DNA of 64,000 bases from an uncultured bacterium (lineage in GTDB: Bacteria; Cyanobacteriota; Vampirovibrionia; Gastranaerophilales; Gastranaerophilaceae). Location: NCBI GenBank assembly GCA_902792085.1, contig CADAYE010000001.1:185596-249595 (forward strand), given 5' to 3'. The first letter of the stretch is position 1. Each line of letters opens with the position of its first letter. Positions 11,140 to 58,499 of this stretch are shown here, piece after piece. Under the pieces are notes generated by a model. That model had not been told where the DNA came from and did not search any database. It saw nothing but the letters and a program-made list of their open reading frames with translations. Position numbers and translations under genes: made by a program.

Positions 11140-11142
11140 TTT

Positions 11143-12090
11143 ATGGATAAAATTGCTATTCTGACGGGTGACCCGAACGGAATCGGGGCAGAAATTACTC
11201 TCAAAGCGTTAAAAATTTTGAATTTAACCACAGATAAAGTTGTTTTGATTTCTAATAGTGAAGTGCTGAATTTTTATAATAATTTGGCAGGTTGTCATGC
11301 TGACATTGATAAATATGAAATTATTGAAATTCCGTATAACAAAGCAGATATACACGCAGGAAAAGTTTCTGCTCAGGCAGGCGAATTTTCTTTTCAGTCA
11401 TTAAAAAAAGTGTGTGAATTAAAGCCAAAGGCAATTGTTACTGCTCCTGTTGCAAAAAATGCCCTGCACCTTGCCGGATACAATTTTAACGGTCAAACTG
11501 AAGTTTTGCAAAAATATCTCTCGCATGACGGTCAACTTGCAGAGATGCTTTTTGTAGCGGACAATTTCAGGGTTTTGCTTTTAACAAGACACTGTGCGCT
11601 AAAAGAAATAAATTTGACAAAGGAAATCGTTATAAAAAAAGTTGAAAATCTTGTCAAAACTTTTAGAACTGTTTTTAAAATCGATAACCCGAAATTTGCA
11701 CTTTGCGGATTTAATCCCCACGCAGGTGAGGACGGGATTTTAGGCAGAGAAGAAATTGAAATTTTAATCCCTGCGGTTGAATATTTAAAAGATGAGGGGA
11801 TTGATATTACTTATCCAAAACCGTCAGATACTTTATTTATTAATGCAGGCAGATATTATTATAATAATGAAAAAGACGATTATGATTGTTATATTGCCTG
11901 CTATCACGATCAGGGGTTGATTCCCGTTAAAACGGTTGCAGGTGAAAAAACTGTTAATACAACTATCGGACTTGATGTCATAAGAACATCTCCGGGACAT
12001 GGTACGGCATTTGATATTGCAGGAAAAGGTGTTGCAAATCCTGATAGTATGGTTGAGGCAATTAGACTCGCATTAAAATTAAGCGAATAA
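11143..12090 (+). CDS. pdxA2: 4-phosphothreonate-type dehydrogenase, PdxA family
   Basis: The 315-residue protein is a PdxA-family metal-dependent NAD dehydrogenase. It begins IAILTGDPNGIGAEITLKAL, has TAPVAKNALHLAGY, the metal-binding His region LLLTRHCAL and CGFNPHAGEDG, and DTLFINAGRYY and CYHDQGLIPVKT near the C-terminus. Because it follows a DUF1537 kinase by 3 nt, it is best read as PdxA2 acting on 4-phospho-threonate or erythronate. A role in pyridoxal phosphate synthesis is the alternative. Confidence 0.85.
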   Translation: MDKIAILTGDPNGIGAEITLKALKILNLTTDKVVLISNSEVLNFYNNLAGCHADIDKYEIIEIPYNKADIHAGKVSAQAGEFSFQSLKKVCELKPKAIVTAPVAKNALHLAGYNFNGQTEVLQKYLSHDGQLAEMLFVADNFRVLLLTRHCALKEINLTKEIVIKKVENLVKTFRTVFKIDNPKFALCGFNPHAGEDGILGREEIEILIPAVEYLKDEGIDITYPKPSDTLFINAGRYYYNNEKDDYDCYIACYHDQGLIPVKTVAGEKTVNTTIGLDVIRTSPGHGTAFDIAGKGVANPDSMVEAIRLALKLSE

Positions 12091-12100
12091 TGTATTTGTT

Positions 12101-12174
12101 AAGAATTGTAAACCTGAATTTAAAATAGCGCAAACCCTGTTATAATCTGCTATATGATATGATATGATATGATG
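12101..12174 (+). promoter_or_regulatory. ATATG promoter cassette, copy A
   Basis: A GAATTGTAAA box is followed about 30 nt later by CCCTGTTATAATCTGCT (TATAAT at 12141-12146) and then four tandem ATATG units (12152-12171). No good -35 hexamer is spaced to the -10. The same arrangement lies at 15666 and 25091. It leads into the 111-residue gene at 12258 after about 85 nt. Confidence 0.65.
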
Positions 12175-12257
12175 TGGTGGGGTGGGGCAATCCTTTTGAG
12201 TGAAATGTTTTAATTAAAGTATAAGGGTTATTTAGGTTAAAAGGAAAGGAAATTATT

Positions 12258-12593
12258 ATGTTATCATTTGGGGCAAGAGTTACTGCAAGAATTATTGAAA
12301 AACCGTTGGTCGGTTTGAGTAAAACTATTTTTCCGAAAACTAAGACTGTCGTAAAAAAAATTTTAAATCAGAATTTGCCAAAAGGAGAGCAAATAGTAAA
12401 AAGGACAATTCCAAGAAATGATATAACAAGTTTTGCGAATGTTCATTATTTTGATTTATCAAAACAATCAGGAGAAAAAATATTAAAGGCATTTGATAAA
12501 GACGGAAATTTGCTTGCAGAAGGAATGAATGTAATTAAGCAATTAATGCAAAAAGGTAAAAGAACCGCTGAATTTTGGTATCGTCATCATTAG
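12258..12593 (+). CDS. lineage-specific hypothetical protein, 111 residues
   Basis: I do not recognise a domain. The protein is basic, begins MLSFGARVTARIIEKPL, and has no signal peptide or membrane segment. AAAGGAAAGG gives a solid ribosome site 7 nt before the ATG. The gene is single, bounded by the ATATG cassette upstream and a GGTGCAA-type hairpin downstream. Two other genes with the same leader (15825 and 25261) also encode short orphan proteins, so they may be co-regulated. Being a real gene is supported by ribosome site and promoter. Confidence 0.6.
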   Translation: MLSFGARVTARIIEKPLVGLSKTIFPKTKTVVKKILNQNLPKGEQIVKRTIPRNDITSFANVHYFDLSKQSGEKILKAFDKDGNLLAEGMNVIKQLMQKGKRTAEFWYRHH

Positions 12594-13077
12594 TGAGTAG
12601 GGTGCAATTATTTGCACCAAATTAAAACGGCTGGATTGTCCTCTCGAAAAACAATACTTAATTGTTTTTCTCGGCAGAGTACTTCGTTCGCAATGACATG
12701 TTTCAGGGTGTAGGTCAGGCAATTGCCTGACATAAAATAAAATGTAAGGCGGAGGTAAAAACCCCGCCTTTAAATTTTTCCCTCTCCGTAGGGGATACAA
12801 AGCGAACCGATTTTTGTCATCCTGAACTTGATTCAGGATCTTCAAAATCGTGTGAGCCTGTATGCCTTGTGCTGAGGGCTGTTCCCTGTTAGGGGTTAAT
12901 AAACCTTACCCTCTCTTGAATTTCTAATGCTCAACTTCGTTTTGCATTGAAATTCTTTTCTCCCGATAGGATAAACCCTCTCTCATTTTTCTAAATTCGC
13001 TTCCGCTCATTAAGAAAAATTGCTCTCCCCCAAGGGGGATAGAATGTAGGTTGGATAAAACCCAATAATACTTTATC
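12594..13077. repeat. mosaic of intergenic repeats, no gene
   Basis: The gap starts with a GGTGCAA-n-TTGCACC hairpin (12601-12617) that may terminate the preceding gene. It then holds a GGCTGGATTG...CGCAATGACA module, an inverted CATCCTGAAC/GATTCAGGATC palindrome (12817-12840), the CCTCTCTTGAATTTC-type long repeat and a CCCCCAAGGGGG palindrome with GTAGGTTGG (13020-13055). All of these recur elsewhere in the window. No coding frame stands out. Confidence 0.65.
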
Positions 13078-13944
13078 TTACAGTTTAACTTCTACTCCTG
13101 TTTTATATGAGCCAAGGTATCTGAAAAATGAGGTCTTGGGTTTAATTTCGTTTATTGCTTTTAACATATTTGTTCCCTGAACATGTCCGTCAAAATTTAC
13201 GATAAATATGTATTCATCAGGGTTTGAGCGTGACGGCTGGGATGAAATATATGTAAGGTTAATATTGTGTTCAAGAAATATACTCAGGATTTTTAACAAT
13301 GCACCCGGAGTATGATTTGTGCGAAAAGCAATAGTCGTCTTATCCTTGCCTGTTGGTGTTGTTTCCATATCACCTATTAATATATATCTTGTTTTGTTAT
13401 TCTTATCATCGTGAATATTTTCTTTTAAAATGTTTAACATATTTTCCTGCGCAATTTTTCGGTTTCCTATTGATGCGTATGTAAGGTTGTAATTTCGCAG
13501 TTCATCAGCGGCTTCAAACATTGATGCTGCTTCAATAATTGTATGATGCATAGGAAGTTCATTATTTATAAAATCCTGACATTTTGAAATCATACGGGGA
13601 GATGCGATTAAATTTGTAATACTGTATAATTCTGTTGTTTTTGACAAAAGACAGTATTCTATCGGCATAATAATTTCCGATAAAATTTTAATATTCGGAT
13701 TTTTTGTTGCCATAAGGTAATCTAATGTTTCTCTTATAGTTCCGTCTAAAGTATTTTCAACCGGTAAAACACCTAAAGTATCAGGGTTTTGTTCTACATA
13801 TTCGACGACCTGTTTAATATTATTTAAAGGAGTTGTAAAGCAGTTCATATTATACATTGAGCAAAATTCATCAACTGCCATTGCGCTGAAACTCGTTTCA
13901 GGTTCCAAATATGCAATATTTCTTACCGACTCAAAATTAAACAT
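13078..13944 (-). CDS. pheA: prephenate dehydratase
   Basis: The 288-residue protein converts prephenate to phenylpyruvate in phenylalanine synthesis. The dehydratase domain shows GVLPVENTLDGTIRETLDYL and the catalytic NKTRYILIG; the C-terminal ACT domain shows FRTNHTPGALLKILSIF and ISSQPSRSNPDEYIF. The N-terminal motif reads YLEPETSFSAMA where GPxGTFS is usual, and the ACT effector motif ESRP is replaced by SSQP, so phenylalanine feedback could differ. The ATG at 13944 is preferred over one two codons upstream. It is divergent from the phosphohexomutase. Confidence 0.9.
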   Translation of the reverse strand: MFNFESVRNIAYLEPETSFSAMAVDEFCSMYNMNCFTTPLNNIKQVVEYVEQNPDTLGVLPVENTLDGTIRETLDYLMATKNPNIKILSEIIMPIEYCLLSKTTELYSITNLIASPRMISKCQDFINNELPMHHTIIEAASMFEAADELRNYNLTYASIGNRKIAQENMLNILKENIHDDKNNKTRYILIGDMETTPTGKDKTTIAFRTNHTPGALLKILSIFLEHNINLTYISSQPSRSNPDEYIFIVNFDGHVQGTNMLKAINEIKPKTSFFRYLGSYKTGVEVKL

Positions 13945-13998
13945 TTGCACCTCTTCCTTATTTCAATTACAATTATATCAAAAATAAAGGAAAATAAG

Positions 13999-15462
13999 AT
14001 GGCTGATATAAAATTTGGAACAGATGGTTGGAGAGCGATTGTCGGAGAAGATTTTACAAAAGAGAATGTAGAACTCGTTTCAAGGGCGATAGGCAAGTAT
14101 GTTTTTGATAATTATGGAGTATACAAAACCATAATAATAGGTTATGATCCGCGCAATATGGCTGATGAATTTTCAATGCAGTGCGCTCAAACTCTTGCTA
14201 ATTTAGGATTTAAAGTATTGTATAGTGATAAGGTTGTTCCAACACCTGTTCTTGCATTTAATGCAAAATATCTTGATGCGTGCGCAATTATGTTTACTGC
14301 TTCTCATAATCCGCCACAGTATCTTGGGATAAAATTTATACCGGATTATGCCGGACCTGCGACAAAAGAAATAACAGATGAAATTGTCTCTAATATCGGT
14401 TGTGAATTTGAAACTAATGTCAAAGGCAAACTGATTATGTCTGATTTTTCAAATGCTTATTTTAAAAAAATTAATCAAATTATTGATTTTGAAAAAATAA
14501 AAAACGGGTTAAAAAATACCCATATACTTTTTGATGGTTTATACAGTTCAAGTATCGGTTATTTTGATAAATTACTTTCAAGTCATGATATAAAATTTGA
14601 CAGTATTCACATGTATCATGACCCAAATTTTGGCGGTGGAATGCCTGAGCCTAAGCCTCAATATATGGGTGAAGCAATTGAATATGTAAAATTTCACAAT
14701 ACTCCGTTGGCTTTGGGCGAAGGTAAATTTGCGCTTAAAGGCGGTTATGTCGCATTTGCAAATGACGGTGATGCCGACAGGTTTGGTGTAATCAATGAAA
14801 ACGGTGAATATGTTACTCCAAATGAGATTATGGCAATTTTGCTGATGCACCTGAAACAAAACAAAGGTTATGACGGTTGCTTTGTAAAAACTGTTGCGGG
14901 AAGTCTGATGCTTGATATTATTGCTCAAAAACTTGGTGTAGAAGTTGTTGAAACTGCAGTCGGATTCAAGCATGTAGGCGAAGCAATGAGAAAATATAAT
15001 CCGATTATTGCCGGTGAAGAATCAGGCGGGCTGAGTATTCAGGGGCATATACCGGAAAAAGACGGAATTCTTGCTAATTTATTGATTCTTGAGGCTATGG
15101 CTTATGGTACGGCTTCCCTCGCCCCATCGGGGAGAGGGAGTGAGGGTGAGGGGCAAACTCTCACTTCGCTGCAGCAAGGTCTTAAAGATTTTGTCGGTTG
15201 TGAATTTATTAATACAAGAGTCGATAAAAAATTAGATAATTTTGATGAAATTGCCTTTACAATTGAGAAATTTGCCCAAATGAATGAAATTGCCGGCATG
15301 AATATTATCAGAAGAGATGATAAAGATGGGATTAAATTGTATCTTGAAGATAACAAGACATGGATTTTAGTTCGTGCATCAGGTACCGAACCGCTTTTGA
15401 GAATTTATATCGAAAGTGACTCTCAGGAGAAAATTGATAATATTAAATCTGTATTAAACTAA
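13999..15462 (+). CDS. phosphoglucomutase/phosphomannomutase family protein with in-frame repeat insertion
   Basis: The 487-residue alpha-D-phosphohexomutase interconverts hexose 1- and 6-phosphates. It shows FGTDGWRAIVGEDF, phosphoserine loop FTASHNPP, metal loop ANDGDADRFG, sugar loop AGEESGGLSI and phosphate-binding RASGTEPLLRIY. AAAGGAAAA lies before the ATG at 13999. About 17 residues near position 373 (ASLAPSGRGSEGEG) have no counterpart in the family and derive from a REP-like palindrome at about 15109-15165. Substrate (glucose or mannose phosphate) cannot be decided from sequence. Confidence 0.9.
   Translation: MADIKFGTDGWRAIVGEDFTKENVELVSRAIGKYVFDNYGVYKTIIIGYDPRNMADEFSMQCAQTLANLGFKVLYSDKVVPTPVLAFNAKYLDACAIMFTASHNPPQYLGIKFIPDYAGPATKEITDEIVSNIGCEFETNVKGKLIMSDFSNAYFKKINQIIDFEKIKNGLKNTHILFDGLYSSSIGYFDKLLSSHDIKFDSIHMYHDPNFGGGMPEPKPQYMGEAIEYVKFHNTPLALGEGKFALKGGYVAFANDGDADRFGVINENGEYVTPNEIMAILLMHLKQNKGYDGCFVKTVAGSLMLDIIAQKLGVEVVETAVGFKHVGEAMRKYNPIIAGEESGGLSIQGHIPEKDGILANLLILEAMAYGTASLAPSGRGSEGEGQTLTSLQQGLKDFVGCEFINTRVDKKLDNFDEIAFTIEKFAQMNEIAGMNIIRRDDKDGIKLYLEDNKTWILVRASGTEPLLRIYIESDSQEKIDNIKSVLN
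15109..15165. repeat. REP-like palindrome inside the phosphohexomutase gene
   Basis: The run contains CCCTCGCCCCATCGGGGAGAG and GTGAGGGTGAGGGG, the same halves as the intergenic REP-like family. It adds about 51 nt (17 codons) without breaking the frame. Confidence 0.75.
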
Positions 15463-15474
15463 AAATATTTTTTA

Positions 15475-15660
15475 AATAAGTAAGTTGGGGTTTCTACCCC
15501 AACATTTAGTTTGTTGGGCTGAAAGCCCAACTTACATATTATTCTGAACTGTTTGTCATGCTGAACTCGTTTCAGCATCTCCTTGTTAATCAAATTCAAG
15601 AGTGTTCAGTAGGAGATTCCGAAATAAATTCGGAATGACAAAACGAATAAAATTGTGTAA
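15475..15660. repeat. two intergenic palindromes after the phosphohexomutase
   Basis: AAGTTGGGGTTTCTACCCCAAC with GTTGGGCTGAAAGCCCAACTT (15482-15534) forms two hairpins that may terminate the upstream gene. Then comes a GTCATGCTGAACTCGTTTCAGCATCTCC palindrome copy, and a partner GGAGATTCCGAAATAAATTCGGAATGACA copy in the other orientation (about 15557-15641). The two copies could fold into a long hairpin. Writing is limited here to their positions: 15557-15584 and 15613-15641. Confidence 0.6.
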
Positions 15661-15665
15661 ATATT

Positions 15666-15739
15666 AAGAATTGTAAAGTTGAATTTAAAAAGGCTGAAAC
15701 CCTGTTATAATCTGCTATATGATATGATATGATATGATG
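15666..15739 (+). promoter_or_regulatory. ATATG promoter cassette, copy B
   Basis: This is nearly identical to copy A: AAGAATTGTAAA, then CCCTGTTATAATCTGCT with TATAAT at 15706-15711, then four ATATG units (15717-15736) and ATGTGGTGGGG. The leader to the gene at 15825 is about 100 nt. Confidence 0.65.
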
Positions 15740-15824
15740 TGGTGGGGCGGGGCAATTTTTATTCCTTTTAAGTTTTTATGAAATTAGGTAATAGTTTATA
15801 AAAATGTAGAAAGGAATTTTAATT

Positions 15825-16727
15825 ATGTCATTAAGTGTAAATCGTGTTGGTACTGCTCCTGTGTCAACTTGCTCATTTCAAGCAAGAGAAAGAAAAAATA
15901 ATTTACCTAAGGAGCAAAATAAAACATTAAAAGTGTTAGCAGGTTTGGGGGCATTGGCAGCTTTAGGAACAGCGACTGTATTATTGCATAACTCAAGAGC
16001 CGCAAAAAAAGCTTTTCAAGTAGGATTTAATCATGTCGAGCCTGTTGTTATTAAAGAAACAGCGGCAAGAAAAAATGCAAATGAAATGATTGACCGTGTA
16101 GAAATGCTAAAACGTAATGAAGGCGGGAAATATGCATTTACAGACGGGAAAGGTCCGAGTTATAGGGATATCGGCAGATATCCGAAAGCTGAAGATATGG
16201 AAAAAGTAAATTGGGATGCAAAGCCGATATCAAGAAATCAGGCATTGTTTGAACGTAAATTTTATGGCGATGCTAAATTACCATATATAAATCCTGATTA
16301 TCAAAAAGAAATAGCAAAATTTGAAGAATTTGGCGGCAAAGTTCATGTTAAGGATTTAAAAAATGGTGAAAAAGAAATAACATATATTTATCCTGAAAAT
16401 TCTGTATTTGAATCAAAGACTGTCAGAGGTAAAGTTGCTGATATAGAAAAAGGTCATGATTTTTCAAAATTTGACGAAAAAAGAGTTTGCATAACATTAA
16501 AAGAAAGTGAAGGCGGACATACATACGGCTTAGTTTTAAGAAATAATTTCAGACCAGGTGATGGCGGGAAATATGAAATTCTCTTTGATGGTGCAAATCA
16601 GTGGGGCTATATAAAATCGGAAGATGTATTAAAAGGTTCAAGTCATTTTATAAACTGTGGTAATCTAAGTAAGCAATCAGAAGAAGCAGTTTCTAAATTC
16701 TTCCAAAAAGAATTAGGTCTGGCATAA
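15825..16727 (+). CDS. lineage-specific protein of 300 residues with N-terminal hydrophobic segment
   Basis: I do not recognise a domain. Residues 1-30 are polar and end near TCSFQARERK; a hydrophobic stretch follows (VLAGLGALAALGTATVLL, about 35-52), probably a single membrane anchor. The remainder is a soluble, charged domain rich in Gly and Lys (for example RGKVADIEKGHDF, LKESEGGHTYGLVL). AGAAAGGA precedes the ATG. The gene carries the ATATG cassette and is followed by a 12-bp hairpin. Its role is unknown; a surface or envelope protein is an inference from the anchor. Confidence 0.65.
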   Translation: MSLSVNRVGTAPVSTCSFQARERKNNLPKEQNKTLKVLAGLGALAALGTATVLLHNSRAAKKAFQVGFNHVEPVVIKETAARKNANEMIDRVEMLKRNEGGKYAFTDGKGPSYRDIGRYPKAEDMEKVNWDAKPISRNQALFERKFYGDAKLPYINPDYQKEIAKFEEFGGKVHVKDLKNGEKEITYIYPENSVFESKTVRGKVADIEKGHDFSKFDEKRVCITLKESEGGHTYGLVLRNNFRPGDGGKYEILFDGANQWGYIKSEDVLKGSSHFINCGNLSKQSEEAVSKFFQKELGLA

Positions 16728-16772
16728 TAAGCCTGTAGGGTGCAATTTTTGCATTAACAAAACATAAAATTA

Positions 16773-16801
16773 CAAGAGAAGAACCTGTTGTTCTTCTCTT
16801 G
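16773..16801 (+). terminator. 12-bp hairpin after the 300-residue gene
   Basis: CAAGAGAAGAAC and GTTCTTCTCTTG form a perfect stem with a 5-nt loop. The T-run after it is weak (TTGTGTCTATTT), so termination is likely but not certain. Confidence 0.6.
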
Positions 16802-16802
16802 T

Positions 16803-17170
16803 TGTGTCTATTTCCTCCCCAATGGGGGAGAATGTAGGTTGGGTGAAACCCAACAAAAAATATAAAAATGAGGCTTTTAAGATTCTGAAATAAATTCAGG
16901 ATGACAAAGCCTCATTTTTTGAATAAATGAGTAGGGTGCAATTATTTGCACCGAATTAACTTCGTCATTCTGAGGCTTTAGCCGAAGAATCTTCTATTTA
17001 TTGTTTTTTATCAATGTTCAATCATGCGATTCTTCGGTCATTTCATTCCCTCAGAATGACTGTTAAACAAACCCTTCAACCATTCAACTGTTCAACTAAA
17101 ATCTATCCCCTCCTAACCTCCCCCGTTGGGGAGGAACGATTATAAAAATCATTCAACCGTTCAACCATTC
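16803..17170. repeat. intergenic repeat mosaic upstream of the ribosomal cluster
   Basis: The 650-nt gap before rpsJ holds a GTAGGTTGGGTGAAACCCAAC hairpin-type copy (16834-16854), a GATTCTGAAATAAATTCAGGATGAC copy (16879-16903 region), a GGTGCAATTATTTGCACC hairpin (16936-16953), and a pair CGTCATTCTGAGGC...CCTCAGAATGAC (about 16974-17060) that can fold as one long hairpin. The rest is AT-rich with TTCAACCATTCAAC tandem pieces. No gene is seen. Confidence 0.6.
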
Positions 17171-17235
17171 AACTAATATGTATTGTTTCGCTTTCTCTTC
17201 ATTTTACAATTCTTTACAATCATGCAAAATGCTTG

Positions 17236-17264
17236 TTGACAGTGAATTTTGTTTGTCATAGTAT
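17236..17264 (+). promoter_or_regulatory. promoter of the ribosomal-protein cluster
   Basis: TTGACA (17236-17241, consensus) and TAGTAT (17259-17264) lie 17 nt apart, giving a leader of about 110 nt before rpsJ. Confidence 0.5.
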
Positions 17265-17382
17265 AGTTATACTCAAAAATAATGTCCGAAGTATGTAAAA
17301 TAGCAATTTTGAGTACGAAACAAAGGCTTTTTCGGGGCTTTTGGTTCAAGTAGTACATAGAAAATATAAAGGAATGCTAAAG

Positions 17383-17703
17383 ATGGCAAACAGCACAAAA
17401 AAATCAAGAATCAGAGTTTGTTTAAAGGCTTATGACCACAAACTTATTGATGTATCCGCTGAAAAAATTGTAGAAACAGCGAAAAGAACAGACGCTAAAG
17501 TAGCCGGACCTATTCCTTTACCTACAAAAAGACGTATATATTGCGTTTTGCGTTCACCACACGTTGATAAAAAATCTCGTGAACATTTTGAAATGAGAAC
17601 TCATAAGCGTATTATTGATATATACGATCCGACTCAACAGACAACTGAAGAGTTAAGTAGATTAGATTTACCTGCTGGCGTTGATATAGAAGTAAAATTA
17701 TAA
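17383..17703 (+). CDS. rpsJ: 30S ribosomal protein S10
   Basis: The 106-residue protein shows [55 protein letters not shown] in separate conserved blocks and ends with [11 protein letters not shown]10 sits in the 30S head and also serves antitermination as NusE. The ATG at 17383 is chosen because AAGGA lies 10 nt upstream; in-frame codons further 5' lack a ribosome site. It opens the S10 cluster. rpsL, rpsG, fusA and tuf do not precede it here. Confidence 0.95.
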
Positions 17704-17932
17704 TCAACAGCCGAAATTGAAAATTTAATAGCATTATGCAACATAATGTGATCTACGGCACCCGTAGCGGTGTGAGGTTAAATCCTCAAAAGGTAAAGAA
17801 AAAGGTAGCGCTCACAAGCGAAAAATGTGCAATTCTGAAAAACGAACTTTATTTTGAAAGCTCAAAAGATTGTAAGGTTCAAGAGGCAGATATATTCTGC
17901 ACCAAGTAGGATGAGCATGGAAAGGAAAAATT
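17704..17932. other. 229-nt spacer between rpsJ and rplC
   Basis: The spacer is unusually long for an S10 operon. It contains a CATTATG-CAA-CATAATG hairpin (about 17732-17748) and no ORF with a ribosome site. It could hold a regulatory leader for rplC; nothing definite is seen. Confidence 0.4.
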
Positions 17933-18568
17933 ATGACAATAGGTGTAATTGGTAAAAAAGTCGGAATGACTCAAATCTTTGACGAAAACGGTTTGGCAGT
18001 TCCGGTAACCGTAATCAAAGTTGATGAAACTGTTGTTACTCAGGTAAAAACAGTTGAAACTGACGGTTACAATGCTATTCAGGTAGGAACGATTGCAGCC
18101 AAAGAAAAACATTTGACAAAGGCTCAATTAGGTCATTTCAAGAAAAACAACTTATCAAATTACAGACATTTACAAGAGTTTAGAATTGATAATCCTGCTG
18201 ATTTCAAAGTAGGTGATAAAATTGAACTTTCTGTATTAGATAAAGTTGAAAAAGTCGATGTAACAGGCAAATCAATAGGTAAAGGCTTCCAAGGTACAGT
18301 AAAAAGATGGAACTTTGGCAGAGGACCTATGGCTCACGGTTCTAAAAACCACAGAGAACCTGGTTCAATCGGCGCAGGTACAACTCCTTCTCGTGTTATC
18401 AAAGGCAAAAGAATGGCAGGTAACATGGGTAATGAAAGAGTTACAATTACTAAACTTAAACTTGTTAAAGTTGATGCTGATAACGGTTTAGTATTAGTAA
18501 AAGGTTCAGTTCCGGGTTGCGAAGGAAGATTGGTTACAATCGTTCCAACAAGAACAAAGTGGAATTAA
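17933..18568 (+). CDS. rplC: 50S ribosomal protein L3
   Basis: The 211-residue protein begins IGVIGKKVGMTQIFDENG and has the L3 signature region FGRGPMAHGSKNHREPGSIGAGTTPSRVIKGKRMAGNMG (positions about 125-165). L3 initiates 50S assembly near the 3' domain of 23S rRNA. GGAAAGG precedes the ATG. A 235-nt spacer with repeats separates it from rplD. Confidence 0.96.
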   Translation: MTIGVIGKKVGMTQIFDENGLAVPVTVIKVDETVVTQVKTVETDGYNAIQVGTIAAKEKHLTKAQLGHFKKNNLSNYRHLQEFRIDNPADFKVGDKIELSVLDKVEKVDVTGKSIGKGFQGTVKRWNFGRGPMAHGSKNHREPGSIGAGTTPSRVIKGKRMAGNMGNERVTITKLKLVKVDADNGLVLVKGSVPGCEGRLVTIVPTRTKWN

Positions 18569-18584
18569 AAGGCGTAAGCCGATG

Positions 18585-18640
18585 TGAAGTGCCGGTGTCG
18601 GTTCGCGAGAGCGAAGCGAGCAGGGCACGAAACATAATAT
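18585..18640. repeat. dispersed repeat between rplC and rplD
   Basis: GAAGTGCCGGTGTCGGTTCGCGAGAGCGAAG...GCAGGGCACGAA here matches, with a few changes, 44239-44285 in the element upstream of the 59-residue gene. It contains a GCGAGAGCGA hairpin core. The rest of the 18569-18803 spacer has no gene. Confidence 0.5.
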
Positions 18641-18803
18641 CTCCGCCGTTGTGAATGAAGCATAAGCGAAATGAACGAACAAATCTTTGATTTGACAGGC
18701 GGAATAACAGTAACAGACAAGTTATAAAAATCCTCAAGTTGCCATATAAAACGCAGGTTGCGGAAGGGGTAACAGGCAGTAGTAAAAAGAAAAGGAAAGA
18801 AAA

Positions 18804-19430
18804 ATGTCAAAAGAAATTTTAAGTACAAATGGTGAAAAATTAGGCGAAATCACCTTAGCCAAAGAAGTATTTGGTGTTGAACCTAATATACATGTAATGC
18901 ACTTGGCATTAAGAAGACAATTAAATAATGCTCGTTCAGGTAACGCTTGCACAAAAACAAGAGCAGAAGTTTCAGGCGGTGGGAGAAAACCTTGGAAACA
19001 AAAAGGTACAGGCCGTGCAAGAGCAGGTTCTTTAAGATCACCTTTATTTGCAGGCGGTGGCGTAATCTTTGGACCAAAACCAAGAAGTTATGCTTTCAAT
19101 ATGCCGCAAAAAGCAAGAAAGTTGGCTTTGAAATCTGCATTGAGCGCAAGAGAATCTCAATTAGTTGTTGTTAAGGATTTTTCAACAATTTCCGAACCAA
19201 AAACTAAGTTGATGGTTAGTGCATTGAAATCATTAAATGTTAGCGGAAAAGTTTTAATCGTTGCTAATTTTGCTGCGGATGAAAACAAAAATCTTGAATT
19301 GTCAGCAAGAAATATTCCAAGCGTAAAACTTTTATTACCTAACAATTTGAATGTAAAAGACTTACTTGAAGCTGATTTCGTTGTAATGACAGAATCTGCA
19401 ATAAATGAAATTACAGAAAGGTTAAGTTAG
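18804..19430 (+). CDS. rplD: 50S ribosomal protein L4
   Basis: The 208-residue protein has the L4 extended loop TRAEVSGGGRKPWKQKGTGRAR followed by GSLRSPLFAGGGVIFGPKPRSY, and a C-terminal globular part. L4 lines the exit tunnel and in other bacteria autoregulates the S10 operon. AAAGGAAAG precedes the ATG. Confidence 0.95.
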   Translation: MSKEILSTNGEKLGEITLAKEVFGVEPNIHVMHLALRRQLNNARSGNACTKTRAEVSGGGRKPWKQKGTGRARAGSLRSPLFAGGGVIFGPKPRSYAFNMPQKARKLALKSALSARESQLVVVKDFSTISEPKTKLMVSALKSLNVSGKVLIVANFAADENKNLELSARNIPSVKLLLPNNLNVKDLLEADFVVMTESAINEITERLS

Positions 19431-19519
19431 TCGTTGCCGAAGTATGAGGCTTACGAATAACTTATCCCGAACTTGATTCGGGATCCCAAACAAAAAATAA
19501 AATTGTAAAGGAAAGAAAA

Positions 19520-19810
19520 ATGAGTAAAGAAAATTTATACAATGTAATCAAAAAACCTTTAATAACAGAAAAGTCTGTAGCAGCAACTGAAAATGGTCAG
19601 TATACATTTGAAGTAAGAAAAGATGCAAATAAAATTGAAATTGCTAAAGCTGTAGAATTGGCTTTCCCTGGCAGAAAGGTAAAGAAAGTTCAAACAGTTT
19701 ATATGCCATCTCACTCAAAGAGAATGGGTTATAAATTCGGAAGAACAGATTCTTCCAAAAAAGCCATCGTAACAATCGAAGGCGAACCATTAGAATTTAT
19801 GCAAGTGTAA
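19520..19810 (+). CDS. rplW: 50S ribosomal protein L23
   Basis: The 96-residue protein begins LYNVIKKPLITEKSVAATENG and shows YTFEVRKDANKIEIAKAVE and FGRTDSSKKAIVTIEG. L23 forms the docking site for trigger factor and SRP at the tunnel exit. An inverted CCCGAACTTGATTCGGG repeat (19464-19483) lies in the spacer before it. Confidence 0.93.
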   Translation: MSKENLYNVIKKPLITEKSVAATENGQYTFEVRKDANKIEIAKAVELAFPGRKVKKVQTVYMPSHSKRMGYKFGRTDSSKKAIVTIEGEPLEFMQV

Positions 19811-19908
19811 TAAATTTTAATTTGTGTGAGGGTTTAATCTTCACAAATAACAGGGCGTAGGCGGCATAAGTCCTGAAAAGTAGTAGAAAGCCGTAAGGAG
19901 AAAATAAA

Positions 19909-20739
19909 ATGGCAATCAGAACAATTAATCCGACGTCTCCGGGACAAAGAGGCATGACAAGAAGTGATTATTCTGAAATCACTACTTCAACTCCTGAAAA
20001 ATCATTGCTTAGATCATTAAATAAAAAATCAGGCAGAAATAACACAGGCAGAATCACTTGTCGTCACAAAGGCGGTGGTGTAAAAAGAGCATATCGTGTT
20101 ATTGATTTTAAAAGAGAAAAATTCGGTATTCCTGCAACAGTAAAAACTGTTGAATATGATCCGAACAGAAATGTCAGAATTTCATTATGTTTTTACGCTG
20201 ACGGAGAAAAGAGATATATCTTGACTCCGGAGGGTTTGAATGTAGGAGATAAAATTATAAGCGGTCCTGAAGCACCTGTTCAGACAGGTAATGCACTTCC
20301 GCTTGAACTTATTCCGTTAGGTACATTTGTTCATAATATTGAAATGACCCCGGGTCGTGGCGGAATTTTAGTCAGAGCAGCTGGTAACAGTGCTCAAGTA
20401 ATGGCAAAAGAAGGAAATTATGTTACAGTAAAACTTCCTTCAGGCGAGATGAGAATGATAAGAAAAGAATGTTTGGCAACAATCGGTGTATTGGGTAATG
20501 CTGAATTCAAGAACTTATCAATCGGTAAAGCCGGCAGAAAGCGTTATTTGGGTGTCAGACCTACAGTTCGCGGTGTAACAATGAACCCTTGCGATCACCC
20601 ACACGGTGGTGGTGAAGGTAAAACAGGTCCCGGTGGTAATCCTAAGACTCCTTGGGGTAAACCGGCACTTGGTTACAAAACTCGTAAAAAAGGCAAAGCG
20701 TCTGATAAATTAATCGTAAGAAGACGCAACAAGCGTTAA
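19909..20739 (+). CDS. rplB: 50S ribosomal protein L2
   Basis: The 276-residue protein has [22 protein letters not shown], the peptidyl-transferase-associated [22 protein letters not shown] region and the basic C-terminus. L2 is required for subunit joining and peptidyl transfer. Length is standard and AAGGAGAAAATAAA precedes the ATG. Confidence 0.97.
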
Positions 20740-20777
20740 TAAACAATAAATACTCAATAAACAAAAAGGAGAAATAA

Positions 20778-21059
20778 ATGGCACGTTCATTAAAAAAAGG
20801 TGCATATGTAGAAGAATCTCTACAAAAGAAAATAGATAAAATGAATGCTAACTCTGAAAAGAAAGTTATCAAAACTTGGTCAAGAGCATCAATGGTAGTA
20901 CCTGATATGTTAAACCATACAATAGCAGTACACAACGGAAAAACTCACGTTCCTGTTTATATTACTGAAGAAATGGTCGGACACAAATTAGGTGAATTCG
21001 CTCCGACAAGACTTTTCAAAGGTCATGCAGGTTCTGATAAAACTGCAAAAAGAGGTTAG
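20778..21059 (+). CDS. rpsS: 30S ribosomal protein S19
   Basis: The 93-residue protein reads [19 protein letters not shown] at the start and [20 protein letters not shown] near the end, the S19 signature. It binds 16S rRNA with S13 in the 30S head. AAAAAGGAG precedes the ATG. Confidence 0.96.
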
Positions 21060-21104
21060 TACAAAATCCAAAGTAATATTTATTAAACAAAAAGGATAAA
21101 AACA

Positions 21105-21437
21105 ATGGAAGCAAAAGCAAAACAAACAGACATAAAAATGACAGCACGTAAACTTCGCAGAGTAATTAACGAAGTTCGCGGAAAATCTGTTATTGAGGCT
21201 CAGGATATGTTGCGTTTTATGCCATACTTTGCAGCAAGAGTGGTTGAAAAGAATTTGAAAGCCGCAGTTGCAAACGCAAGAGAACAGTATGGTGTTGCTC
21301 CTGAATCATTGAAGATATCACAAATCTTCGCTGATGAAAGTACAACTTATAAACGCGCAAGAACAAGAGCACAAGGTCGTATGTACTCAAGAATGAAGCG
21401 TACATCACACCTCACATTGGTAGTAAGTGAAAAATAG
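21105..21437 (+). CDS. rplV: 50S ribosomal protein L22
   Basis: The 110-residue protein has [21 protein letters not shown], and the beta-hairpin with its [21 protein letters not shown]-terminal block that extends into the exit tunnel. Length is standard. An AAAGGAT ribosome site precedes the ATG. Confidence 0.95.
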
Positions 21438-21448
21438 GAAATAATGAT

Positions 21449-22195
21449 ATGGGACAAAAAACACATCCAACCGGATTCAGAGTAGGTATCATTCAAAAAT
21501 GGGCAAGCACTTGGTTTGCTAAAGCAAAAGACTACAGAGAATTCGTAGCGGAAGACGCTAAAATTAGAAAATTTGTTAAGAAAAAACTTTATGCAGCCGG
21601 AATTTCTAAAATCTGGATTGCAAGAAAAGGTGACAAAATAACAATCACGGTTGTTACAGCAAAACCTGGTATTGTTGTTGGCAGAGGCGGTCAGGGTATT
21701 GATGATCTTCGTAAAGAAGTATCAAAATACATTGGCAAAGAAGTTGTTATCAATGTTGTTGAAGTTGCAAGAATTGATGCTGATGCACAATTAGTTGCAG
21801 AAAATATTGCTCAACAACTTGAAAAGCGTATTGCATTCCGTCGTGCTATGAAACAAGCAATGCAAAGAACAATGCGTTCAGGCGTACAGGGTATCAAAGT
21901 TATGGTATCAGGTCGTTTGGGTGGTGCAGAAATCGCTCGTTCAGAATGGGCAAAAGAAGGAAGAATCCCTTTGCAGACATTAAGAGCAGATGTTGATTTC
22001 GGTTTTGCGGAAGCAGATACAATCATGGGTAAGATTGGTGTTAAGGTTTGGATTTTCAAAGGCAACTTGATGCCCGGTGAACTTGCTGATCAAAACATCA
22101 AATCAAGCAAAGGTAACAGAGAAAACAATTCCGAAAGACCTGCAAGACGCCAAAGACGCGCAAAAGCAGCGATTTCAACAGAAGAAACTAAGTAA
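21449..22195 (+). CDS. rpsC: 30S ribosomal protein S3
   Basis: The 248-residue protein begins [18 protein letters not shown], contains the KH domain around [19 protein letters not shown] and the C-terminal [33 protein letters not shown] block, seen here as [14 protein letters not shown] and [13 protein letters not shown]. The tail is Lys/Arg-rich. It begins 11 nt after rplV. Confidence 0.96.
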
Positions 22196-22230
22196 TTAAG
22201 GTATAAATAATATAATAGGAGCAATATAAA

Positions 22231-22618
22231 ATGTTACAGCCTAAAAAAACAAAATACCGCAAAATGATGAAAGGCAGAATGAAAGGTACCGAAACAAGAG
22301 GTACAAAACTTGAATTCGGTCATTACGGTTTGCAGGCAGTAGAGCCGGGTTGGATTACCAGCCGTCAGATAGAGGCTGCTCGTCGTGCAATGACTCGTGA
22401 AATCAAACGTGGCGGTAATGTATGGATTAAAATATTCCCTGATAAACCTATTACTGCAAAACCTGCTGAAACTCGTATGGGTTCAGGTAGTAGTAAAACC
22501 AAACAGAATCATGTTTGAACTTGAATACTTTGATAGAGCAGTTGCAGTTCACGCTTTGGAACTTGCAGCACAAAAATTGCCTATCAAAACCAAAATAGTC
22601 GAAAAGACAGAAGCATAA
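22231..22618 (+). pseudogene. rplP: 50S ribosomal protein L16, frame broken by a small deletion
   Basis: The first frame encodes a normal L16 up to RMGSG (22231-22488): [15 protein letters not shown] start, [30 protein letters not shown]. The C-terminal part continues in another frame from 22490 ([33 protein letters not shown]) to the stop at 22618. Between them the universally conserved KGxxEYWVA segment, which contacts tRNA and 23S rRNA, is missing: about nine residues, net about 26 nt. As written the first frame ends at 22518 (95 residues). L16 is essential for 50S assembly, so an assembly error or mixed-strain collapse is more likely than real loss. Confidence 0.85.
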
Positions 22619-22636
22619 TTAAAAAGGAAAATAAAA

Positions 22637-22747
22637 ATGAAATTAAGTGAAATGCGTGAAAAGACAGTCGATGAGTTGCAAAATGCAATTGTTGATTGGA
22701 AAAAACAATTATTAGAATCAAGAGTTGCTCTTGAAAGACAGTTATAA
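22637..22747 (+). pseudogene. rpmC: 50S ribosomal protein L29, truncated by a small deletion
   Basis: The frame encodes 36 residues (KLSEMREKTVDELQNAIVDW, then LESRVALERQL) and stops. L29 is normally 60-70 residues with a second helix. The expected C-terminal end is present in a different frame just downstream (ITEKGKENA, 22744-22773), ending in an overlap with rpsQ. About 19-20 residues of the second helix, ending at the usual RIxTV, are missing between the two parts. This is the second of three similar lesions within 1.4 kb. Confidence 0.8.
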
Positions 22748-22765
22748 CTGAGAAAGGTAAAGAAA

Positions 22766-23011
22766 ATGCCTAAAAAAGAAAAACAAGGAACGGTTATAAG
22801 CAATAAAATGGACAAGACGGTTGTTGTAAAAGTTGCAGATTACGAACCGCATCCGAGATACAAAAAGATTATGGAATCTAACAAACATTATAAAGCACAT
22901 GACGAAAATAATATTTGTAATGAAGGTGACATAGTCAGAATCGTAGAAGCAAAGCCAATGTCAAAAGATAAAAGATGGGCAGTGGCAGAGGTGGTTGAAA
23001 AAGCGAGATAA
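22766..23011 (+). CDS. rpsQ: 30S ribosomal protein S17
   Basis: The 81-residue protein shows KQGTVISNKMDKTVVVKV, HPRYKKIMESNKHYKAHDE and GDIVRIVEAKPMSKDKRW, all typical of S17, a primary 16S rRNA binder. Length is standard. GAAAGG lies before the ATG. The remnant L29 frame overlaps its first 8 nt. Confidence 0.95.
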   Translation: MPKKEKQGTVISNKMDKTVVVKVADYEPHPRYKKIMESNKHYKAHDENNICNEGDIVRIVEAKPMSKDKRWAVAEVVEKAR

Positions 23012-23040
23012 TTGTAGTTTCGCTTTGCGAAACGTACAAG

Positions 23041-23190
23041 TATCTCGTCCTGAATTTATTTCAGGACCTCCACCTACAAAACAAAGCAACATTACCACAG
23101 AGTAATGAGAGGCAGTAGGTCGGTTTAAAATTCAAAAGGAAACTTTCCCCTCAACTTTTGGGAGAGGGTGCCCGCAGGGCGGGTGAGGGT
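23041..23190. repeat. two palindromic repeats between rpsQ and rplN
   Basis: A CGTCCTGAATTTATTTCAGGACC palindrome lies at about 23047-23069, and a REP-like CCCCTCAACTTTTGGGAGAGGG...GCGGGTGAGGGT copy at 23147-23190. They fill most of the 208-nt spacer inside the ribosomal cluster. Confidence 0.6.
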
Positions 23191-23219
23191 AAAAATCGAC
23201 ACAAGAAAAGGAAAGAAAA

Positions 23220-23588
23220 ATGATACAACAAGAGACCAGATTAGTAGTTGCTGATAACACAGGTGCAAAAGAATTATTATGTATCCGTGTTATGGGTAGT
23301 TCAAATAAAAAATTCGCGGCCGTTGGGGACGAAATTGTTGCTTCAGTCAAGGATGCAACTCCTAATATGACCGTTAAAAAAGGTGAAGTTGTTCGTGCAG
23401 TAATAGTAAGAACTAAGGCAGATATCAAGCGTCAAGATGGTTCAGTAATCAGATTTGACGAAAACGCTGCAGTAATTATTGCAAAAGACGGCAACCCGAG
23501 AGGAACTCGTGTATTCGGTCCTGTCGCTCGTGAATTGAGAGACAAAGGATATATGAAGATTGTTTCTCTTGCACCTGAAGTTATTTAG
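23220..23588 (+). CDS. rplN: 50S ribosomal protein L14
   Basis: The 122-residue protein begins [19 protein letters not shown] and has [24 protein letters not shown] and the conserved end [20 protein letters not shown] followed by VSLAPEVI. Length and motifs are canonical. GGAAAGAAAA precedes the ATG. Confidence 0.97.
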
Positions 23589-23624
23589 CCATTAATGAGC
23601 CGTCAGGCGAATTTAGGGATAAAT

Positions 23625-23702
23625 AATCTCGAACTTGTTTCGGGATATAAAGCAAATGAGGGAACTCCCCTCACCATATCCTTTCTCCGGAGGGGCGAGG
23701 GT
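23625..23702. repeat. palindromic repeats between rplN and rplX
   Basis: A CTCGAACTTGTTTCGGGAT copy (about 23627-23645) is followed by a REP-like CCCCTCACCATATCC...GGAGGGGCGAGGGT copy (23666-23702). Confidence 0.5.
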
Positions 23703-23732
23703 ACAGGTTAGTAAAACAAAAAGGAAAGAAAA

Positions 23733-24025
23733 ATGACAAACACAGATAAGAAAGATTTACATGTAAAAAATGGTGACAGAGTTATCATTATTGCAGGTAA
23801 AGACAAAGGAAAAATCGGTAACAAAATATGATTACTAAAGCCCAAAAACCACAGCCTGCTGCAGGTATTCAGGGTGGACTTATCAAATTGGAAGCCCCAA
23901 TTGATTCGTCAAATGTAATGATTGTTTGTCCTGCATGTGACAAGGCAACAAGACCGGCAATGAAAGTTATTGACGGCAAAAAAGTACGCGTTTGTAAAAA
24001 ATGCGGTGAGCAACTAGATGCTTAA
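23733..24025 (+). pseudogene. rplX: 50S ribosomal protein L24, frame broken by a small deletion
   Basis: The first frame gives the L24 KOW start (VKNGDRVIIIAGKDKGKIG) and stops at 23829-23831 after 32 residues. The remaining L24 resumes in another frame from 23828 (ITKAQKPQPAAGIQGGLIK, APIDSSNVMIVCPACDKATR, KKVRVCKKCGEQLDA) to 24025. The central strand, usually KVxxVxxxxxxVxVEGxN, is missing: about 17 residues, net about 43-45 nt. The C-terminal half also contains two CxxC pairs, as in zinc-containing L24 variants. This is the third lesion of the same kind; see L16 and L29. Confidence 0.85.
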
Positions 24026-24039
24026 TGTGTGAAACTTTT

Positions 24040-24076
24040 TCCCTCGCCCTTTGGGAGAGGGTAGGGGGTGAGGGTT
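24040..24076. repeat. REP-like palindrome between rplX and rplE
   Basis: CCCTCGCCCTTTGGGAGAGGG followed by TAGGGGGTGAGGGT is a full copy of the REP-like family. It is almost the same as the copy at 32762-32799. Confidence 0.65.
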
Positions 24077-24127
24077 CTCGCTCCGAGTGATTTACGACAT
24101 TAATACCAATAGTAAAGGAAAGAAAAA

Positions 24128-24685
24128 ATGACAGTAACAAAAAATCTAAAGGAACGCTATTCAAGTGAAGTAGTTCCTGCAATGCAAGAAAAATTCGGAT
24201 ATAAAAATATCCACCAAGTACCAAAATTAGTTAAAATAGTTTTGAACATGGGTGTAGGTGAGGCTTCTCACAACTCAAAAATTGCTGAAGCAATTGAACA
24301 TCAATTGACAAAAATTGCCGGTCAAAAGGCAGTTGTAACAAAGGCTAAAAAATCTATCGCATCTTATAAATTAAGAGAAGGTATGCCTGTTGGAGCAATG
24401 GCTACATTGAGAGGCGAAAGAATGTATGATTTCTTACAAAAACTAATTTGTGTAGTTTTGCCAAGAATCCGTGACTTCCGCGGCGTTAGTGCTAAAAGTT
24501 TCGATGGCAGAGGAAACTATACATTAGGTTTGAAAGAACAGGCTTTGTTCCCTGAAATTTCTTATGAAGAAGTAGATTTAGTTAAGGGTATGAATGTTTC
24601 AGTTATTACGACTGCTGAAACTGATGACGAAGCAAGAGAATTGTTAAGACTTTTGGGCATGCCGTTCAAAGGTTTAAACAAGTAA
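24128..24685 (+). CDS. rplE: 50S ribosomal protein L5
   Basis: The 185-residue protein shows [50 protein letters not shown] and [15 protein letters not shown], all L5 hallmarks. L5 binds 5S rRNA in the central protuberance. GGAAAGAAAAA precedes the ATG. The frame is intact. Confidence 0.96.
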
Positions 24686-24698
24686 GATGAAAAATTTT

Positions 24699-24726
24699 GT
24701 CATTCTGAACTTGTTTCAGAATCTTA
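24699..24726. repeat. inverted-repeat copy between rplE and rpsN
   Basis: GTCATTCTGAACTTG and TTTCAGAATC form the familiar short palindrome of this genome. Confidence 0.5.
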
Positions 24727-24781
24727 AAATTTTTCTTACGAAATGGAAAATAATACACAATAAAACATAAAGGAGAAATTC

Positions 24782-24988
24782 ATGGCTAAAAAAGCGATGA
24801 TAGACAAAGAAGCAAAACGCGAAAGACTTGTTGCAGCTGGTAAATACCCTGCAGTAAGATTACATAACAGATGCAGCATTTGTGGCAGACCACACGGATA
24901 CCACAGAGATTTCGGTCTTTGCAGAATTTGTTTAAGAAAAATGGCACACCAGGGTTTATTACCGGGTGTTACAAAAGCAAGCTGGTAG
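24782..24988 (+). CDS. rpsN: 30S ribosomal protein S14, zinc-binding type
   Basis: The 68-residue protein is the short C+ form with a zinc site [20 protein letters not shown], and ends [17 protein letters not shown]. It is the last gene of the cluster here. The usual followers (rpsH, rplF, rplR, rpsE, secY) are absent; a strong terminator follows after 26 nt. AAAGGAG precedes the ATG. Confidence 0.95.
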
Positions 24989-25014
24989 TTTGCAAGCCAA
25001 ATTAGTAATTGATA

Positions 25015-25047
25015 AAAAGCAGGTATAGGTTTCCTATGCCTGCTTTT
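25015..25047 (+). terminator. terminator closing the ribosomal cluster
   Basis: AAAAGCAGGTATAGG (25015-25029) and CCTATGCCTGCTTTT (25033-25047) form a stem of about 15 bp with one mismatch and a 3-nt loop, with T residues at the 3' side. Confidence 0.85.
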
Positions 25048-25090
25048 GTTTGCTCTCTCCCAAAAGTGAGGGCGAAATATCTATTGTAAC

Positions 25091-25173
25091 GAATTGTAAA
25101 GCTAAATTTCAAAACCCCTCAAACCCAGTTATAATCTGCTATATGATATGATATGATATGATATGATATGTGG
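25091..25173 (+). promoter_or_regulatory. ATATG promoter cassette, copy C
   Basis: GAATTGTAAA, then AACCCAGTTATAATCTGCT (TATAAT at 25130-25135), then six tandem ATATG units (25141-25170). Copies A and B have four units. It drives the short gene at 25261. Confidence 0.65.
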
Positions 25174-25260
25174 GCTCGTGTCAATAATTTTACCCGAAAA
25201 TTTTTTATAAATGTACAGGGGAAAAACATTTATAGAGAATACGAAAGGAGAAAAATTATT

Positions 25261-25530
25261 ATGTTTGTAAAAGGAGTAAGTTGTTTAACAAAGAATTGTT
25301 TTAAAAATGGAAGGATTTTGAAAGGATTGCCTGAAATAAAACTCAATGAGAGTGTCTTAAAATCCTATGAAAAAGTACCAAAATCTTCTCAGGCAAATGC
25401 TACTGCTTTTGTTGAAATGGTAAACAAATCGCTTGAAAAAATGAACAAAAAACCTTCAATTATGGTACGTCTTAAGAGAGTTCCGTACGTATTAAAAAAT
25501 ATTGCACGAAAAATTTTAAATATTTAAGAA
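25261..25530 (+). CDS. lineage-specific basic protein of 89 residues
   Basis: I do not recognise a domain. The protein begins MFVKGVSCLTKNCFKNG, is rich in Lys and Val, and ends with VPYVLKNIARKILNI, an amphipathic basic helix. It has no signal peptide. The ATG at 25261 follows GAAAGGAG by 11 nt; an upstream in-frame GTG-type start lies inside the ATATG cassette and is unlikely. It is monocistronic, closed by a GGTGCGTAGTCTGACGCACC hairpin (25537-25556), and shares its leader with the genes at 12258 and 15825. Confidence 0.6.
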
Positions 25531-44608: not shown

Positions 44609-44692
44609 AATGTAAAGTTTAATTGTTTTTGTAAAGATATGTAACAAATATATACTTTTTATATAAAATTACGCAATTTTTGATTTTATAAA

Positions 44693-58337: not shown

Positions 58338-58363
58338 ATAAAGTGATCCTGAATCAAGTTCAG

Positions 58364-58455
58364 GATGACGGTATTGTCAGGTTTAGGACGACGGTATTGT
58401 CAGGTTTAAGATGACGGTATTGTCAGGTTTAGGACGACGGTATTGTCAGGTTTAG
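58364..58455. repeat. four tandem 23-nt repeats
   Basis: The unit GATGACGGTATTGTCAGGTTTAG varies between GAT/GAC and TTAG/TTAA and is repeated four times, right after a ATCCTGAATCAAGTTCAGGAT palindrome. It may be a variable-number locus. It lies upstream of the murB promoter. Confidence 0.85.
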
Positions 58456-58499
58456 GACGATTAAAGGGAAAAATTGACAAGTTTTATTATTGTAATAAA

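Follow-up and report, generated by a model that had tools for sequence, protein, structure and literature searches.

Integron gene cassettes are small unrelated genes that turn over at fixed sites, and phage morons are single unrelated genes, each with its own promoter. In Haemophilus, Neisseria and Moraxella, phase-variable promoters contain simple sequence repeats, i.e. short tandem repeats whose number differs between loci. In cyanobacteria the OmpR-type light-response regulator RpaB binds HLR1, KTTACAWW-N2-KTTACAWW (PMC13421787, PMC11633204), and activation was reported from about -66 to -45 (PMC13421787). RpaB homologues were reported before in non-photosynthetic Melainabacteria (PMC3787301, PMC5877343, PMC4040986), with NblS in two of these three papers, and their function was left open; the 2013 report states that the homologues of RpaB, RpaA and NblS 'may have another function' (PMC3787301). 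Here we analysed a stretch of 64,000 nucleotides (the window) from an uncultured bacterium of the Gastranaerophilaceae (GCA_902792085.1, contig CADAYE010000001.1, positions 185,596 to 249,595). It carries three copies of a promoter cassette consisting of an HLR1-type box, TATAAT and an array of ATATG pentamers, each in front of a different orphan gene. The best-supported reading of the sequences is an RpaB-activated promoter platform for exchangeable orphan genes, with RpaB probably being the activator. Taken together, we judge it fairly probable that this is a family-specific HLR1 promoter cassette, switched on by RpaB, in front of unrelated orphans which differ between species at one and the same site.

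From 5' to 3' the cassette comprises a GAATTGTAAA-containing box, a weak -35, TATAAT, CTGCT, four, four or six ATATG units, a CAAT-ending stretch, a T-rich block and the gene; all three copies are on the forward strand. In copy 1, the HLR1-type box TTTGTTAAGAATTGTAAA (12095..12112) has a single mismatch to WWTGTAAMNNWWTGTAAM (motif after PMC13421787 and PMC11633204). It is followed by the -35-like TTTAAA (12119..12124), the -10 TATAAT (12141..12146), (ATATG)4 at the predicted transcription start (12152..12171), a second spaced block CAAT...TTTTAAT (12188..12214) and a gene for 111 amino acids (aa; 12258..12593). Copy 2 has the box AATATTAAGAATTGTAAA with two mismatches (15660..15677), TTTAAA (15684..15689), TATAAT (15706..15711), (ATATG)4 (15717..15736), the block CAAT...TTTTTAT (15753..15779) and a 300-aa orphan gene (15825..16727). 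In copy 3 the box ATTGTAACGAATTGTAAA is perfect (25083..25100); TTCAAA (25108..25113), TATAAT (25130..25135), (ATATG)6 (25141..25170), CAAT...TTTTTAT (25182..25208) and an 88-aa orphan gene (25261..25527) follow. Thus, the three loci with four, four and six units which the initial annotation had described are indeed present, at 12152, 15717 and 25141. It had also noted the lack of a good -35: the hexamers match the consensus at four of six positions each, with 16-bp spacing. The gap between the end of GAATTGTAAA and TATAAT is 28, 28 and 29 nt, and the core reads CCCTGTTATAATCTGCT in copies 1 and 2 and CCCAGTTATAATCTGCT in copy 3. Three ATATG units with at most one mismatch occurred 10 times in the window against a shuffle mean of 0.02. 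The core word with up to two mismatches was not unusual (four occurrences, 2.1 expected); however, the three sites have it without any mismatch, and it belongs to a family of 58-nt repeats (147 nt between copies 1 and 2). None of the three genes had a Pfam match above cut-off. A GTAGGGTGC element begins within 10 nt past the stop codon of each (12598, 16736, 25534).

The initial annotation had named a restriction to these three copies as a counter-argument. A search of the window's genome (G000; 1.92 Mb, 39 contigs) yielded seven: three in the window, three on contig C23 and one on C25. By eye, the -35/-10 stretch of L051, the orthologue in G023, is missing from the C25 copy (L011). Exact 16-mer matches were found in 7 of the 46 genomes of the genus. 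A sequence-only profile built from 25 copies matched 38 of them (E<=0.01), the largest number being 16 copies in G005. In a sample of the family the profile matched 183 of 383 genomes (E<=1e-4), representing 27 of 41 genera, so the shared cassette proposed initially extends family-wide; among 11 chosen family genomes the maximum was at least 21 copies per genome. In a class-wide sample of 382 genomes, which also includes family members (the share outside the family is not stated), 143 genomes in 23 of 97 genera matched (E<=1e-5), all 143 within the window's family. By these searches the cassette is family-specific. Copy numbers from the large searches are lower bounds because about eight candidates were scored per genome. 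An exact pattern scan of named species genomes gave 83 stretches, e.g. in Gastranaerophilales, Melainabacteria and 'Cyanobacteria bacterium SIG26', many of them from gut or rumen. A four-unit cassette was also found at 9977-10009 on L237, a contig from a viral collection. By eye, L237 has phage-like genes and a host NAD-kinase-like gene; therefore, phages may carry such units.

For the comparisons below, 187 copies from 55 genomes were fetched and aligned. This set is non-random: it consists of strong matches to the profile, and 11 of the genomes were included because their copies were numerous or unusual. A partial match (L121:1567-1609) was dropped before counting. The GAATTGTAAA box turned out to be the proximal half of the 18-bp HLR1 motif. 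Beyond G000 and its nearest relatives the commonest form of the box is TGTAACGAAATGTAAA or close to it, the reverse complement of which is HLR1. Measured against the cyanobacterial consensus of PMC13421787 and PMC11633204, the best match was perfect in 90 of 187 copies, had one mismatch in 32 and two in 53, i.e. at most two in 175. In controls, a perfect match was seen once in 144 stretches of 70 nt taken 180-250 nt upstream and once in 935 shuffled cassettes. The box is at an identical offset in 140 of 147 copies, and it ends 28-29 nt ahead of the -10 in 132 of the 137 copies with a recognised -10. With a predicted start 7 nt past the -10, it would occupy about -58 to -41, compared with the -66 to -45 stated in PMC13421787. 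A palindrome, TTAC-N5-GTAA, had been suggested as activator site by the G000 copies; it was dropped because further copies showed the direct repeat TGTAAC-N4-TGTAAA. The activator box postulated by the initial annotation is supported by sequence, and with RpaB a candidate activator can be named.

G000 encodes three OmpR-type regulators, L279, L280 and L281. In this genome, the one tested, L279 (contig C12) passed the NCBIfam RpaB equivalog model NF045944 with 363.1 bits (cut-off 330); L280 and L281 fell below the cut-off. Some near relatives are named RpaB by one source. It is likely, as far as motif and regulator content can tell, that RpaB switches the cassette genes on. Perfect HLR1 sites exceeded a reversed-pattern control in all 46 genus genomes (795 versus 92 in total), including genomes without a profile-detected cassette, e.g. 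G002 and G022. G000 has 22 perfect sites (control, 3), of which 19 are outside open reading frames (ORFs) of 50 or more aa; by eye, many precede proteins of lineage-specific look. The cassette therefore appears to be a single branch within a larger HLR1 regulon. The window contains two further perfect HLR1 sites, 17203-17220 (-), which precedes a ribosomal protein gene cluster starting near 17341, and 44628-44645 (+). Upstream of a 759-aa orphan gene (26046-28325), an HLR1-like box with one mismatch and a sigma28-like word were noticed by eye (28437-28373, -). A G000 gene with a similar N-terminus likewise has HLR1 upstream.

The pentamer array is tightly positioned: of the 166 copies measured, 159 have its start 3-6 nt past the -10. 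Among the 187 copies the unit was ATATG in 125, ATAGG-type in 24, GTATG-type in 13, CTATG-type in 8, CATAG-type in one and something else in two; 14 had no period-5 run of at least 12 nt. The run was exactly 22 nt long in 85 of 173 arrays and ranged from 12 to 45 nt between loci. It was 22 nt in all seven fetched copies of G001 (11 were found) and in 15 of 16 in G005; in G000, G020 and G021 lengths were spread. Since one genome per species was compared, differences at one site are those between species: L041 has 22 nt and L055 27 nt, and L006 has 27 nt and L048 22 nt, the latter pair being judged as one site by eye. The variable unit number of the initial annotation is found between loci and species, but the runs are uniform in the fetched G001 copies and nearly so in G005. 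Units clustered by genome. In G223, 10 of 11 arrays were GTATG-type, G058 and G236 were mixed, and G071 had 11 ATAGG, 8 CTATG and one ATATG array. The G071 copies (L259-L261, L362-L376) fall into two subclasses of promoter, which differ in pentamer unit and slightly in the -10 word. The unit changes but its period does not, which points to the repeat structure, and not its letters, as the maintained feature. A unit shared across the sites of a genome points to exchange between copies or to a co-evolving factor.

Past the array, CAA-plus-TTTTA-type words were present in 148 of 187 copies; in 134 of these the total length was 26 or 27. In 13 of 187, a TAAAGTTTT-N-CCGAT-type word, similar to the sigma28 consensus used for comparison, takes their place. 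Elsewhere in G000, some HLR1 boxes without an array are followed by similar blocks of both kinds, as judged by eye. G000 encodes a FliA-type sigma factor above cut-off and an FlhA-type export protein. With moderate confidence we regard the second block as another core promoter (P2), downstream of the first. Besides the full FlhA-type protein, G000 encodes a shorter one of the FHIPEP type (G000:C9:73086-74102), which may offer an export route to products without signal peptides.

Which genes are located behind the cassette? A same-direction ORF of at least 40 aa led by a ribosome site followed 163 of the 187 copies. The 163 products formed 127 clusters, and 91 had no relative among the others. 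Pfam and PHROGs scans covered 126 of the 127 cluster representatives, a short fragment (L362:3-173) being omitted. Among the Pfam matches listed (25 of 52 families) LysM had five members, RHS two and any other family one; among the PHROGs matches listed no family exceeded four members, mostly with LysM-type endolysin models. By a simple hydropathy rule 3 of 163 products had a hydrophobic N-terminus, and few look Sec-exported. The regulon of lineage-specific proteins foreseen in the initial annotation was corroborated in that unrelated orphans prevail among the genes; the sequence comparisons give good support to a shared regulon under the control of an activator. Among 134 gene tails no common 3' element was detected (GGGTGC type in 13, the commonest 9-mer in 12), nor was an attC-like recombination site of the integron kind.

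Different genes were found behind the cassette at conserved sites. In 43 inter-genome pairs of copies the upstream DNA was similar and a gene was recognised behind each copy; the two genes were unrelated in 38 pairs and related in 5, and weaker upstream matches in this set include dispersed repeats. When upstream similarity was at least 150 bits (25 pairs) the downstream proteins were unrelated in 21 and related in 4. Eighteen of these 21 pairs were re-examined. Seven pairs, from five sites, have different genes between conserved flanks on either side: the pdxA-pheA site (G000 with G021 and G023), a C23 site (G000 with G006 and G021), and one pair each of G020/G023, G038/G045 and G005/G017. 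At pdxA, the site of copy 1, G000 and G021 are 92.5% identical over 10641 to 12221; from 13065 onwards the identity is 94% as far as the compared stretch extends, and between 12221 and 13065 they share only short repeats. G020 matches on the left side only. The gene behind the cassette is a different one in each of the four species G000, G021, G023 and G020. Similarly, the gene upstream of copy 2 precedes different genes in G005 and G017. In six of the seven pairs, at four of five sites, left homology was unbroken through box, -10 and array and broke off ahead of the start codon, at +71 to +124 when counted from the first position of the cassette. On this scale the array occupies about +57 to +79, and most genes begin past +140. 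The reverse was observed as well. One gene, with 96% protein identity between L059 of G021 and L149 of G024, is behind cassettes with different upstream DNA, and the homology begins at the cassette edge. A second case of four genes at one site (G017, G020, G024, G027) was withdrawn because the upstream gene is common to G024 and G027 only, and G017, G020 and G024 share about 300 nt. Two side observations on the window are a phage terminase large subunit (PF04466) at 28687-29973 (-), which suggests a prophage region near copy 3, and a 23-nt tandem repeat at 58354-58468.

The following mechanism would be compatible with these data. Phosphorylated RpaB would bind to HLR1 and recruit RNA polymerase to TATAAT (P1). 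RNA would start at or beside the array, so that the array would be the first transcribed sequence, and the second block would serve another sigma factor as P2. Genes would be exchanged when near-identical cassettes recombine, the junctions being at the array or directly past it. Slippage may shift the unit number in small steps, and selection would hold it near four. The initial annotation had suggested tunable or phase-variable expression. In a phase-variable promoter, slipped-strand changes of ATATG number would switch or tune each gene within a population. The unit number does vary, both in run length between loci (12 to 45 nt) and at single sites between species (L041/L055, L006/L048). However, the array starts past the -10 and not between -35 and -10, so the unit number leaves their spacing unchanged, other than in the classical case. 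The uniform 22-nt runs of the fetched G001 copies and the nearly uniform ones of G005 argue in the same direction, and for fast slippage four 5-mers make a short array. We consider phase variation unlikely. The pentamers might rather act in the RNA, at the 5' end of the mRNA, for AUG-rich ribosome loading or as a protein-bound repeat; TRAP, which binds spaced triplets in RNA, would be a model for the latter. The position at the predicted 5' end, an AUG in each ATATG and a period kept as the unit changes fit such a leader element, and two of the three window leaders folded better than shuffles (z -2.4 and -3.6). Yet ATAGG and CATAG units have no AUG, and no fold was common to the copies: 25 aligned copies had a consensus of -0.41 kcal/mol with no pair changed on both sides, and between 11500 and 28500 of the window no Rfam family scored above gathering. 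A conserved leader peptide (MMWWGG... from the last ATG of the array in some copies) was rejected because the length of these upstream ORFs, 1 to 119 codons, is not kept. An RNA leader function therefore appears improbable to us.

Could the cassette be a small transposable or integron-like element which carries its gene along? Twelve pairs have the same gene but no matching DNA upstream, and in 11 of them the main block of homology starts at -10 to +6 of the cassette edge, little upstream DNA being available for several loci; one cassette is on L237, the contig with phage-like genes. But as all cassettes are alike, a homology start at the edge is expected in any case. Inverted repeats in the three window cassettes, examined without their genes, were internal leader hairpins only, and the gene tails have no 3' element in common. 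A mobile element is quite doubtful. The last alternative concerns the regulator. Three OmpR-type regulators are available in G000, and direct-repeat sites of this class resemble one another; L280 or L281 might bind the box in place of RpaB. Against this, L279 alone passes the RpaB model, and the published RpaB consensus is matched perfectly by the box of 90 of the 187 copies. Binding by another OmpR-type regulator is thus rather unlikely, and RpaB remains the preferred activator. Several findings weigh against an RpaB-activated platform for exchangeable genes. The reversed HLR1 motif was perfect in 17 of 187 copies, because the box is self-similar, and the distal HLR1 half is degraded in many G000-type copies such as copy 2 with its two mismatches. 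No clear downstream gene followed 24 of 187 copies. P2 is based on spacing plus sigma28-like words in 13 of 187 copies, and 26 of 187 fit neither type of second block. As to gene exchange, the pairs are not independent, since pdxA contributes 6 of the 21, and for 11 of the 18 that were re-examined the right flank was outside the compared DNA, non-conserved or weak. The roughly 300 nt shared by G017, G020 and G024 upstream of different genes do not prove a common site. Finally, cassettes generally diverge past the array, which alone would end homology there. Because of this, an exchange junction at the array is suggestive, not proven.

At some sites of this family, then, the promoter is the conserved part of the locus and the gene is the replaceable part. 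This is a natural setting to study how orphan genes enter a regulon. The cassette also supplies testable candidate target genes for the question of RpaB function in non-photosynthetic Melainabacteria. More tentatively, RpaB, a light-response regulator of cyanobacterial descent, may persist in the gut as the master switch of a gene-exchange platform. Recombination with junctions at the array would bring new orphan genes in behind the cassette, and the array, whose unit is rewritten in concert across a genome, would be a new promoter element and tune output in half-turn steps; we regard this extension as doubtful. Among the matches listed in a literature search, titles and abstracts revealed no paper on an HLR1 promoter or such a cassette in Gastranaerophilales or Melainabacteria.

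How does the cassette compare with the known systems? As in integrons, unrelated small genes are replaced at fixed sites; in contrast, each gene here has its own promoter, and 134 gene tails have no common 3' element. As with phage morons, single unrelated genes are located behind their own promoters. Here, however, they are chromosomal, the promoter is near-identical throughout the family and contains a common regulator motif, and genes are replaced at the same site. With phase-variable promoters the cassette shares short promoter repeats and differences in their number from locus to locus, but its array is past the -10, short and mostly of four units, and between genomes the unit is replaced while the period is kept. 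The likeness to the cyanobacterial NblS-RpaB pathway consists in an 18-bp direct repeat of the HLR1 kind just upstream of a core promoter and in RpaB being encoded in the genome. Unlike there, the hosts are non-photosynthetic, the genes are fast-changing orphans instead of photosystem genes, and a pentamer array and a second block follow the -10.

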